37,061 nt of DNA from a virus. The translations under genes and the position numbers were made by a program. Below are positions 3,114-34,335 of this stretch, in pieces. The notes under the pieces are model-generated. The model had not been told where the DNA came from, made no database searches, and worked only from the letters and a program-made list of their open reading frames with translations. The DNA is taken from IMG/VR virus record IMGVR_UViG_3300002223_000006, positions 1 to 37,061 of that record; one strand, given 5' to 3'. The number at the start of each line of letters is the position of its first letter. Positions within the stretch are counted from its first letter, which is position 1.

Positions 3114-3114
3114 T

Positions 3115-3258
3115 TTAAGGGTGGCCGCCGGGGCGCGTAACCTTTCGTAAAGAGTTTCGGTTACCACCCTTAAAAAGTTTTCCACAGTGTCTTTTTTCAA
3201 AGACGTATCATAATTAAGTTAAGAGAACTCTTTATTATTAAAAAACTTGAAACTCTTT
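3115..3258 (+). promoter_or_regulatory. Intergenic RNA structure with interleaved inverted repeats
   Basis: Arm A (3115-3124, TTAAGGGTGG) pairs perfectly with A' (3164-3173). Inside its loop, AAAGAGTTTC (3149-3158) is a perfect 10-nt complement of GAAACTCTTT (3249-3258), which ends 13 nt before the ATG at 3272. The order A-B-A'-B' is that of a pseudoknot or a pair of competing folds. An inner alternative GTAACC/GGTTAC pair (3137-3142/3159-3164) competes with A'. There is no U-run directly after A', so a simple terminator is not obvious. A DnaA-box-like TTTTCCACA lies at 3178-3186. Confidence 0.55.
3178..3186 (+). promoter_or_regulatory. DnaA-box-like site
   Basis: TTTTCCACA in the spacer between terminase and 3272, matching TTWTNCACA. 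Confidence 0.3.
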
Positions 3259-28500: not shown

Positions 28501-28575
28501 CCCTTGCGTCGAGCAATCTGTCGTAGATTAAGGCCCAAGGTCACTCACTCGCAAGGGGAGTTTCTACGACAGATT
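28501..28575 (+). ncRNA. Pseudoknot-type RNA element before the recombination genes
   Basis: Arm A CCCTTGCG (28501-28508) pairs with CGCAAGGG (28550-28557). Arm B AATCTGTCGTAGA (28515-28527) pairs perfectly, 13 bp, with TCTACGACAGATT (28563-28575). The order A-B-A'-B' means both stems can only form together as a pseudoknot, with loops of 6, 22 and 5 nt. The ATG at 28597 follows 21 nt later with no Shine-Dalgarno; a GGAG lies in the third loop (28557-28560) and can also pair with CTCC at 28577-28580. Confidence 0.7.
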
Positions 28576-28596
28576 TCTCCAATTATTTCTAACAAC

Positions 28597-31796: not shown

Positions 31797-31843
31797 TTGT
31801 GCACAGTTGCGATTTAAACATTGGAGGTATGATTGAGATATGA

Positions 31844-31918
31844 ACACTTACGCTGGACAGATTAAGAATTTCAAGAGCCACATCGGGAAACTTATCAGCG
31901 TAAGTGTCCGGTGTGGCT
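31844..31918 (+). ncRNA. Pseudoknot-type RNA element before the replication gene
   Basis: Arm A ACACTTACGCTG (31844-31855) pairs perfectly, 12 bp, with CAGCGTAAGTGT (31896-31907). Arm B AGCCACATCGG (31876-31886) pairs with CCGGTGTGGCT (31908-31918), 11 bp with one G.U. A' and B' are directly adjacent, giving a coaxial pseudoknot. TTTT follows B', so B:B' alone could act as a terminator, with A:A' as a competing fold. The ATG at 31934 has no Shine-Dalgarno. A 40-codon frame with an upstream GGAGG (31823-31827) starts at 31840 and runs through the structure to 31962; it may be a leader peptide or chance. Confidence 0.75.
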
Positions 31919-31933
31919 TTTTAAGTTTTGAAT

Positions 31934-32680
31934 ATGTCCAAACAACGCTTCATCAATACTAAATTCTGGTCAGATAATTATATCGTCAACCTCAACCCTT
32001 TAGAGCGCTATCTGTTTTTATATTTCTTAACCAACGAACACACAAACATAAGTGGAATATACGAACTTCCCCTAAAAAGAATGGCAACAGAAACGGGTAT
32101 TGATATTGATATGTTGCCTAAAATGTTAAAAAGAATGGTTGGTAAAATTTATTATGTGGATGGTTGGGTTTGTATAGTAAACTTCGAAAAACACCAGAGG
32201 TCAAGGGGAAGTCCTAAAATCGAAAAAGGTATTGAACTCGCAAAAAAAGAAGTCCCTGTAACAATATTAGACAAATTCTCCACCTTAATAAGTAGTCTAC
32301 CGATAGACTATCCATACACTCCGAACTATTCTGATTCTGATTCTGATTCTGATTCTGATTCTGATTCTGATTCTGATAATAAGATTATATCTAAAGATAT
32401 AAGGGCCAAAGGCCCGAACCAAGATGTTGAATTATTATTAACCCAATTAAAAGAAATCTTCGGATTGAGGGTTTTAGATGGCACGCAGAAAGAGAACCGC
32501 CAGTATGCTTGGCTTTGCTTGAAGAAATTTGGGAAGCCGGAAACCATAATCGAAGTCATGAAGGCTGGGGTCAACGATAAGTTCTGGCGTACTAAACTTA
32601 CAAGCATGAAATCTCTTTACTACAACGCCGTTAAAATTGCTTCTTCCAAAAGGATTCCTAACATAATCAAAATTTCATGA
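31934..32680 (+). CDS. Replication-initiator-like protein
   Basis: I use the ATG at 31934; the TTG two codons upstream is less likely. The 248-residue protein opens SKQRFINTKFWSDNYIVNLNPLERYLFLYFLTNEHTNISGIYELPLKRMATETG, a winged helix typical of phage replisome-organiser/DnaD-like N-termini. The linker has eight Ser-Asp repeats (residues about 133-148). The C-terminal part (VELLLTQLKEIFGLRVLDGTQ to MKSLYYNAVKIA) is a DnaD/DnaB2-like helical domain. It probably recruits host helicase to the phage origin. Confidence 0.75.
   Translation: MSKQRFINTKFWSDNYIVNLNPLERYLFLYFLTNEHTNISGIYELPLKRMATETGIDIDMLPKMLKRMVGKIYYVDGWVCIVNFEKHQRSRGSPKIEKGIELAKKEVPVTILDKFSTLISSLPIDYPYTPNYSDSDSDSDSDSDSDSDNKIISKDIRAKGPNQDVELLLTQLKEIFGLRVLDGTQKENRQYAWLCLKKFGKPETIIEVMKAGVNDKFWRTKLTSMKSLYYNAVKIASSKRIPNIIKIS
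32330..32377 (+). repeat. Eight tandem TCTGAT hexamers
   Basis: Eight copies of TCTGAT encode (Ser-Asp)8 in the replication protein's linker. Slippage in units of six preserves the frame and would only lengthen or shorten the linker. Confidence 0.95.
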
Positions 32681-32955
32681 ATTTACCTACAGACAAAATG
32701 TATGTTTTGCAACTTAAAAACGAAATTCGAGTTTGGCTTAACCAAAATGAGTTTGAGCTAACCAAAAAAGCTCTTTTGTCGGACGTGTCGTTTATTGAGG
32801 TGCAAGGGAGGCTTATAAATTCAAAAGAGGTTATTTACGTTATGCCACGGACTGATGTTGATACTTCAGACCGGATCAAGCGCGGAGAATGGAAATGTTC
32901 AGGTTGCGAGCAGTGGATACCCAAAGGAAAGCAATGTGGGAAATGCTTTGCGTAA
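32677..32955 (+). CDS. Small zinc-ribbon protein
   Basis: This 92-residue protein has an N-terminal alpha/beta part (MNLPTDKMYVLQLKNEIRVWL) and a C-terminal zinc ribbon CSGCEQWIPKGKQCGKC (C-x2-C-x10-C-x2-C). It overlaps the replication gene by 4 nt. It may act as a co-factor in replication or transcription. No named family recognised. Confidence 0.65.
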   Translation: MNLPTDKMYVLQLKNEIRVWLNQNEFELTKKALLSDVSFIEVQGRLINSKEVIYVMPRTDVDTSDRIKRGEWKCSGCEQWIPKGKQCGKCFA

Positions 32956-32956
32956 C

Positions 32957-32992
32957 TTATCCACACCCCCCTCACGAACAATCAAGTATAAT
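32957..32992 (+). promoter_or_regulatory. DnaA box and -10 box before the SANT-like gene
   Basis: TTATCCACA (32957-32965) is a perfect DnaA box. TATAAT at 32987-32992 lies 6 nt before the ATG at 32999, so a transcript from it would be leaderless or nearly so. The CCCCCCTCA between them also occurs in the duplicated leaders at 34840, 35131 and 35938. No clear -35 box. Confidence 0.5.
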
Positions 32993-33267: not shown

Positions 33268-34335
33268 ATGAAAGCATACAAAATATTTGACCATAACTGG
33301 AAGTGTAAAGATTTTCAGTTTGAAGTGGGGAAAGAGTACACCTATGAAGGAAAGCTCGAAATCTGCGAAAGCGGATTTCATGCTTGTTTAAAATTGGAAG
33401 ATTGCTTCAAGTATTACAAAGCAGTTTCTTGGAACAAGATTGCAGAGGTTGAGATATTGGGAAAAAGTATAACTCACGATGAAGACAGCAAAATTGTAAC
33501 CGATAAAATTAAAATTGTAAGAGAAATAGGATGGCAAGAACTCGAAGAAGTTTATAACGACATCTATGGAGCCAGCAACATCAGTGGAGGAAACAACATC
33601 TGGGGAGCCAGCAACATCAGTGGAGGAAGCAACATCCGTGGAGGAAACTATATCTATGGAGCCAGCAACATCAGGGGAGGAAACAACATCAATGGAGGAA
33701 ACTACATCAATGGAGGAAGCAACATCCGTGGAGGAAGCTATATCTGGGGAGCCAGCAACATCAGGGGAGGAAACTACATCAATGGAGGAAACTACATCAG
33801 TGGAGGAAATGACATCAGTGGAGGAAATGACATCAGTGGAGGAAATGACATCAGTGGAGGAAATGACATCTGGGGAGGAAACTACATCAGTGGAGGAAAT
33901 GACATCAGGGGAGGAAACTACATCAGGGGAGGAAATTACATCAGGGGAGGAAATGACATCTGGGGAGCTAAGAATTGTTATGGAGTAGATTCAGCAATCT
34001 TTATCGCAAACAAAAAAAGACAACCGACTATCTTCGGGAAGAAAGTTACACAAAAAAGATTTGATGAGGTATTTCAAAAACTCAATTCTTTCAACTGGTA
34101 TCCGAAATTCAATAATGCTTTTGATTTTTATTTACAGAAAGGGAACGACTGGGAAAAAGTTCCGGCAGATTTAATCGCGCCAAAAACCAATAAAGAGGCG
34201 TGGGCGGATATTCCTGTCCCTATGAAAAATTATATTTCTTCTTTAAAAGAATACGATAAAAAGACTTTTAAAGAAATCACCGAAATTGATTTGCCAAAAA
34301 ACTCAAATTTGATTTTTTTTCTAAAGATGAGATGA
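33268..34335 (+). CDS. DUF7666-like protein with 23 hexapeptide repeats
   Basis: This 355-residue protein has three parts. Residues 1-90 (YKIFDHNWKCKDFQFEVGKEYTYEGKLEICESGFHACLKLEDCFKYY) resemble a domain common in phage proteins, DUF7666-like. Residues 99-236 are 23 hexads of form I-x-G-(G/A)-(N/S)-x, such as ISGGND and IRGGNY, probably a beta-solenoid. Residues 237-355 form a helical C-terminal domain. The central DNA is made of 18-bp repeats and is open in a second frame too. Proteins of this plan are often found in phages of uncultivated bacteria; role unknown, perhaps a DNA-mimic or binding scaffold. Confidence 0.75.
   Translation: MKAYKIFDHNWKCKDFQFEVGKEYTYEGKLEICESGFHACLKLEDCFKYYKAVSWNKIAEVEILGKSITHDEDSKIVTDKIKIVREIGWQELEEVYNDIYGASNISGGNNIWGASNISGGSNIRGGNYIYGASNIRGGNNINGGNYINGGSNIRGGSYIWGASNIRGGNYINGGNYISGGNDISGGNDISGGNDISGGNDIWGGNYISGGNDIRGGNYIRGGNYIRGGNDIWGAKNCYGVDSAIFIANKKRQPTIFGKKVTQKRFDEVFQKLNSFNWYPKFNNAFDFYLQKGNDWEKVPADLIAPKTNKEAWADIPVPMKNYISSLKEYDKKTFKEITEIDLPKNSNLIFFLKMR
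33562..33975 (+). repeat. Tandem array of 18-bp repeats
   Basis: There are 23 units of ATC-nnn-GGA-(GGA/GCC)-(AAC/AGC/AAT)-nnn. Two codons per unit vary freely (AGT, AGG, CGT, AAT, TGG, TAT in the first; AAC, TAC, GAC, TAT in the last). Four consecutive units at about 33800-33870 are identical (AGT and GAC), a sign of recent expansion. Confidence 0.95.

Follow-up and report, generated by a model that had tools for sequence, protein, structure and literature searches.

The window analysed here, a 37,061-nucleotide stretch of viral DNA (positions 1 to 37,061 of IMG/VR record IMGVR_UViG_3300002223_000006), carries directly before its DnaD-like replication gene, rep, two inverted repeats interleaved in the order A-B-A'-B', and the same layout was found, in unrelated letters, directly before DnaD-like rep in about 20 distinct phage loci. 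We read the element as a co-transcriptional attenuator heading the phage replication operon, in which an A:A' antiterminator competes with a B:B' terminator, and we assign this reading a probability of roughly one half. The layout probably represents a switch, widespread and so far undescribed, that turns phage DNA replication genes on or off. The parts of the element and its surroundings in the window are the following.

31844-31855, + strand: arm A (ACACTTACGCTG), 5' strand of the early stem and proposed antiterminator, with 12 perfect pairs to A'.
31873-31886, + strand: arm B (AAGAGCCACATCGG), 5' strand of the terminator-like hairpin, pairing with B'.
31896-31907, + strand: arm A' (CAGCGTAAGTGT), situated in the loop of the B:B' hairpin.
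31908-31921, + strand: arm B' (CCGGTGTGGCTTTT), abutting A', its first base being the next after A'.
31918-31922, + strand: T5 run at the end of B', proposed U-tract of the terminator.
31854-31940, + strand: extended B hairpin (arms 31854-31886 and 31908-31940), predicted to cover the rep start codon in read-through RNA.
31840-31962, + strand: 40-codon leader open reading frame (ORF; MNTYAGQIKNFKSHIGKLISVSVRCGFLSFEYVQTTLHQY), crossing the structure and overlapping the rep start in another frame.
31823-31827, + strand: GGAGG, possible Shine-Dalgarno sequence of the leader ORF, 12 nucleotides (nt) before its ATG.
31807-31833, + strand: weak promoter candidate, chosen by eye (TTGCGA at 31807-31812 and TATGAT at 31828-31833, spacing 15).
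31934-32680, + strand: rep, encoding a DnaD-like helicase loader or replisome organizer (phrog_1701, E 1e-16; phrog_6251, E 4e-14).

The original prediction, made from the letters of the window, had described this interleaved order with abutting A' and B' and a U-run before a replication gene starting at 31934, and all of these features were recovered in place, the gene being the DnaD-like rep listed above. The arms of the A:A' stem are separated by 40 nt and form the 12-bp perfect helix that had been described, and the 11-bp B stem proved to be the core of a 14-pair B:B' helix, two pairs of which are G.U. The extended B:B' arms are 79% complementary and take in the rep AUG at 31934. Upstream, rep is preceded by NinG- and NinB-like genes. 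Covariance models from Rfam gave no match above the gathering threshold in the window, and a permissive scan returned sub-threshold hairpin matches only.

The arrangement exceeds what chance would produce. Within the 300 nt upstream of rep the interleaved score is 70; none of 40 dinucleotide shuffles reached it, the best of them scoring 39.5. With a stricter scorer, shuffling the entire 37-kb window 20 times gave interleaved scores of 49.5 at most. The single-strand fold of the region has a z value of -3.6. Perfect 12-bp inverted repeats with a loop below 60 nt occur at only one other place in the window (28515), inside a second interleaved element.

Direct homologues of the window's element were sought by an exact 16-mer scan, which gave 17 unrelated, chance-like matches and no homologue. 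Single-sequence protein scans yielded next to nothing, so rep loci were instead fetched from viral contigs and genomes by scans with alignments of the conserved N-terminus of Rep. Interleaved elements scoring above all their own shuffles within 300 nt before rep, near the start codon, were found in L024, L028, L033, L036, L037, L038, L041, L043, L044, L046, L049, L064, L114, L129, L145, L151, L164, L170 and L180, and the interleaved stems of L065 and L166 nearly exceed all shuffles. Eight further loci (L040, L050, L054, L060, L085, L136, L147 and L155) carry the element before the gene preceding rep, which is often an HNH or similar nuclease gene, and this position suggests a leader of the replication operon. 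Elements scoring at least 60 over 872 kb of partly redundant sequence numbered 18 on the rep strand and 2 on the other strand, with none in the shuffles. Over most or all of the length of 20 phage records, six such elements were detected, all on the rep strand and four of them at most 500 nt from rep. Some phages with the layout were found in metagenome-assembled genomes or isolates of different bacterial phyla.

Among cultured phages, Tenacibaculum phage JQ shows a sole match scoring at least 46 in its 40.7 kb, located immediately before the rep operon. Flavobacterium phage 11b has a weaker element before PHG11b_62, behind a TATATTTG box and with a T-run, whose score of 46 is about chance if taken alone. 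No element was found beside rep in the DnaD-like-rep phages Vibrio 1.091.O, Geobacillus PK5.1, Exiguobacterium vB_EalM-137 and D6E, no convincing one in Polaribacter P12002L/S and Nonlabens P12024S, and a good part of the close Rep relatives are without it; the element is not universal. The other two of the six strong elements in the 20 phage records lie far from rep, before unidentified genes (G018, L228, 343-431, score 69; G002, L196, 7231-7352, score 60), and the interleaved layout may serve operons other than replication. The highest interleaved score, 90, was given by L084 (764-871), where stems of 20 and 23 bp lie inside or before a 350-aa ORF of a G+C-rich phage.

That the pairing takes place in the sense RNA is shown by the mismatches within the arms of 31 elements, which were located by a strand-symmetric arm finder and comprise 67 G.U against 9 A.C. 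These elements had initially been chosen with G.U allowed, and the strand comparison reported above (18 against 2) is the cleaner test. On the asymmetry of the mismatches, together with the strand bias, protein-binding palindromes acting at the DNA level were rejected.

A second line of evidence comes from a sequence-conserved subfamily of 19 distinct members, found by gapped-motif scans seeded on L064 and L065; a first gapped pattern, GGTTTCGCAGN{58,88}TTGCGAA, among whose listed matches most were chance, was superseded by a stricter motif. Members of the subfamily share a Bacteroidota-type -7 box, GGTTTCGCAGCC, TGGG and CCCTTGCGAA; GGUUUCGCAGCC and ACCCUUGCGAA, which stand next to stems that covary, are strictly conserved. 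The members precede rep, nuclease, antirepressor-like and other early genes (names assigned by eye). In all 19, the linker after GGTTTCGCAGCC (C) is complementary to a segment of the apical loop (C') with varying letters. The mean C:C' helix score was 15.1, against 10.0 +/- 0.5 with permuted partners (maximum 11.7 in 200 permutations), and 17 distinct helices were counted; the terminator stem scored 26.4 against 16.9 +/- 1.0. C:C' lengthens the invariant A:A' helix and interleaves with B:B'; an interleaved stem and the terminator stem are thus both under selection. Support from covariance, on which the original prediction was to stand or fall, thus extends to both stems: beyond permutation in the subfamily, and by architecture in the approximately 20 rep-relative loci, where both are kept with other letters. 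The subfamily loci gave no Rfam match apart from one tRNA elsewhere, and the exact motif was absent from all 402 Bacteroidota genome searches. The words GGUUUCGCAGCC, UGGG and CCCUUGCGAA are missing from the window, whose element has only the layout in common with the subfamily and is not claimed as a member.

A sense sigma-70-like promoter (at least 9 of 12 positions) precedes A in 18 of the 31 elements, compared with 14% in shuffles, and antisense promoter-like sites behind B' are at background level (6/31); control by an antisense RNA was rejected, in the absence of an antisense promoter signal. T5 stands at the end of B' in 14/31 against a background of 3.4%, a count from which the extended arms exclude some T-runs, the window's included.

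Folding calculations gave an order to the two pairings. When transcripts were cut at the end of A', A:A' dominated in 30 of the 31 elements, and in 28 of these B:B' dominated at full length; B:B' was dominant in 29/31 full-length leaders overall. The selection of strong stems partly builds in this result, not the direction of the change. In the window, the probability of A:A' is 0.93-0.99 for 3' ends from 31907 to 31916 (0.98 at 31907), and with the 3' end at 31919 B:B' is at 0.83, so that the flip falls on the U-tract. In RNA reaching 31942 a basal stem is predicted to mask the rep AUG with a probability of 0.99. Taken with the U-tract and the promoters, this ordered folding fits the choice between antitermination and termination that the original prediction had considered.

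In the mechanism that we infer, the 5' segment A would pair first with A' as the polymerase advances. When B' and the U-tract emerge, B:B' would become the more stable structure, resembling an intrinsic terminator by its stem and U-tract, at which transcription may stop. Because A' lies in the loop of B:B' and B in the loop of A:A', the full stems would hinder each other and A:A' would act as an antiterminator; its persistence while the polymerase crosses the U-tract would then decide read-through into rep. A ribosome on the short leader ORF starting at A might block A:A'. Later it might also unfold the B hairpin and expose the rep start codon, so that the gate would depend on translation; these two ribosome steps are the weakest of the scheme. 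A more daring version, which we consider doubtful, is a new kind of antiterminator that works by topology and not by a shared strand, the RNA's 5' end being locked into the loop of the future terminator. Leaders already terminated, whose A is free and whose A' is displayed, would pair with nascent ones and cause them to terminate. This would amount to a self-sensing copy-number control of phage replication by sense RNA without an antisense gene.

The leader ORF adds to this picture unevenly. In 14 of the 31 elements, against 3.6 expected (P about 1e-6), an ATG near A opens a reading frame that runs without a stop through A, B and A'; L050 and L114 are related, so that not all 14 are independent. 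These two have identical stems and linkers that differ in length by three nucleotides, with the frame kept. Many leader ORFs stop no more than some 30 nt from the following start; the sequence around that start partly dictates this, and other elements have no such ORF. The leader peptides, when read, contained no run of regulatory codons. A conserved small protein was rejected, as the peptides are unrelated and the subfamily words are read in different frames. A frameshift pseudoknot joining the leader ORF to rep was also rejected: the ORF is in another frame, but several elements are without one. The leader-peptide frame seen by the original prediction has statistical support in the broad set and not in the subfamily, and its lack in several clear elements makes the ORF a frequent, not a defining, part. 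The GGAGG that had been noted is present, but it counts for little in a phage with Shine-Dalgarno sequences before few of its genes. Such sequences stand at very few gene starts of the window, which suggests that its host does not rely on them.

Several observations weigh against the attenuator. The window's promoter candidate matches five of six positions in its -10 and was not picked up by the promoter scan, and its U-tract is short (T5). T-runs are missing in L036, L037, L041, L129, L151, L170, L180 and the second element of the window (28501-28579). The folding model ignores pseudoknots and kinetics, and the elements were picked for strong stems. A, B, A' and B' overlap by no more than about a base, so that no strand is shared and the exclusion between A:A' and B:B' would rest on sterics. 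Finally, some elements have no leader ORF, and the excess of such ORFs in the subfamily is not significant (10/19 against 7.1, P 0.1).

The main rival is a pseudoknot or hairpin acting on translation, in which A:A' would form alongside part of B:B' and the two, helped by the leader ORF, would control ribosome access to the rep start while transcription is not stopped, much like the repZ switch of IncI-alpha plasmids. The B hairpin predicted to cover the rep AUG and the leader ORFs ending close to the next start would suit it, as would the relatives in which A' is displayed, by eye, in the loop of a small inner hairpin, fit for a loop-linear pseudoknot. The gaps between A and B and between A' and B' are about 0 in several relatives, which suggests that both full stems cannot coexist there; the hypothetical coaxial pseudoknot of full stems raised by the original prediction looks sterically impossible where both gaps are about 0, for instance in L037. 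However, translational gating does not require T-runs at the end of B', the ribosome site of L136 is free beyond the hairpin, and several clear elements have no leader ORF, so that we regard this explanation as rather less probable than the attenuator.

Seven of the 31 elements have DnaA-box-like sites in the 130 nt preceding A, about thirty times the background. With a promoter just before A and a T-run just after B', these sites would agree with a small gene beside the origin that has no part in rep control and whose product is either a stable small RNA or an RNA serving the replication origin as primer or R-loop. We hold this to be unlikely, given that the stem sequences vary freely, that the window has no DnaA box there, that leader ORFs are enriched and that other genes separate the element from rep in several loci. 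The individual TTATCCACA sites were found at 32955-32970 of the window, downstream of rep, and ahead of the elements in L033, L038, L040, L041, L044, L049 and L114, and may mark origins or DnaA-responsive promoters.

A put-like RNA, binding the RNA polymerase or a phage protein and making the polymerase processive through the early operon, would account for the promoter-proximal position in early operons and for the strictly conserved GGUUUCGCAGCC and ACCCUUGCGAA beside the covarying stems of the subfamily. The wider set, however, has no conserved unpaired core, the T-run stands at the element's own end and Rfam gave no match, which leaves this proposal quite improbable. An ordinary terminator of the upstream nin genes accompanied by a chance inverted repeat, already disfavoured, is very improbable: B' does end in a T-run, some 120 nt past the stop codon of NinB, but the shuffle tests and the second, interleaved stem, which recurs in relatives and covaries in the subfamily, stand against it. 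A small self-cleaving ribozyme of the HDV type, which has a nested pseudoknot, was rejected since no common sequence core exists and Rfam was silent.

Other repeats were noted in the window. The second interleaved element (28501-28579) has arms A (CCCTTGCG, 28501-28508/28550-28557) and B (AATCTGTCGTAGA, 28515-28527/28563-28575) and a score of 57, above the shuffles, without a clear T-run. It lies between two early genes, before an exonuclease-like gene, with A beginning directly after the upstream stop codon. A strong long hairpin at 3114-3174 (AAGGGTGG...CCACCCTT, inner GTAACC/GGTTAC) follows the terminase stop codon directly and is succeeded by T-rich sequence; it is likely an ordinary terminator. 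Within rep, 8.3 perfect copies of the 6-base ATTCTG (32328-32377) encode (Ser-Asp)n and could be a linker or iteron-like origin repeats. A long tandem array (33556-33967) of period 18, with its units in a 90-base super-repeat, lies within a DUF7666 gene (33268-34335).

Known leaders resemble the element in part. The trp/his-type leader-peptide attenuators combine a short ORF, competing stems and a U-tract terminator; our elements have the terminator-like hairpin with a U-tract (T5 not in all), often a short ORF that may be translated and two stems predicted to compete, but no run of regulatory codons and no strand common to these stems. In the repZ system of IncI-alpha, IncB and IncL-M plasmids translation is switched on by a pseudoknot, which an antisense RNA counteracts. 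The replication gene, the overlapping leader ORF and the possible loop-linear RNA pairing are alike, whereas our elements have a T-run behind the second stem and do not all possess a leader ORF; works on the repZ pseudoknot are listed in PMC10724649. The attenuator of pT181-type plasmids (PMC4878617) also occupies a replication-gene leader and sets an early antiterminator pairing against an intrinsic terminator hairpin; unlike it, the A:A' stem is interleaved and shares no strand with the terminator, and no antisense promoter signal lies behind B'. The LEU element of Actinobacteria, for which no ordinary terminator was described, pairs a leucine-codon run with the leuA ribosome site (PMC1262725), and likewise joins a leader ORF to a pseudoknot or alternative hairpin before a gene; in our case there is no codon run, the stem is terminator-like, and genes and hosts are others. 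The STAXI motif (PMC2864571) is a small pseudoknot near genes for DNA-handling proteins, but it consists of tandemly repeated pseudoknots, in contrast to the terminator-like operon leader without Rfam match described here.

Literature searches found the layout nowhere described. The switching of phage replication genes is usually attributed to repressors and antiterminator proteins. The present results show that the replication operons of many phages begin with a compact RNA layout whose structure is kept while its sequence is mostly not conserved. Since this layout escapes BLAST and Rfam, it may have been overlooked although common. Should it prove to be an attenuator with no strand in common between its stems, it would test whether topology alone can decide transcription termination. 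The presence of the element in the cultured Tenacibaculum phage JQ, and possibly also in Flavobacterium phage 11b, makes the proposed switch directly testable.
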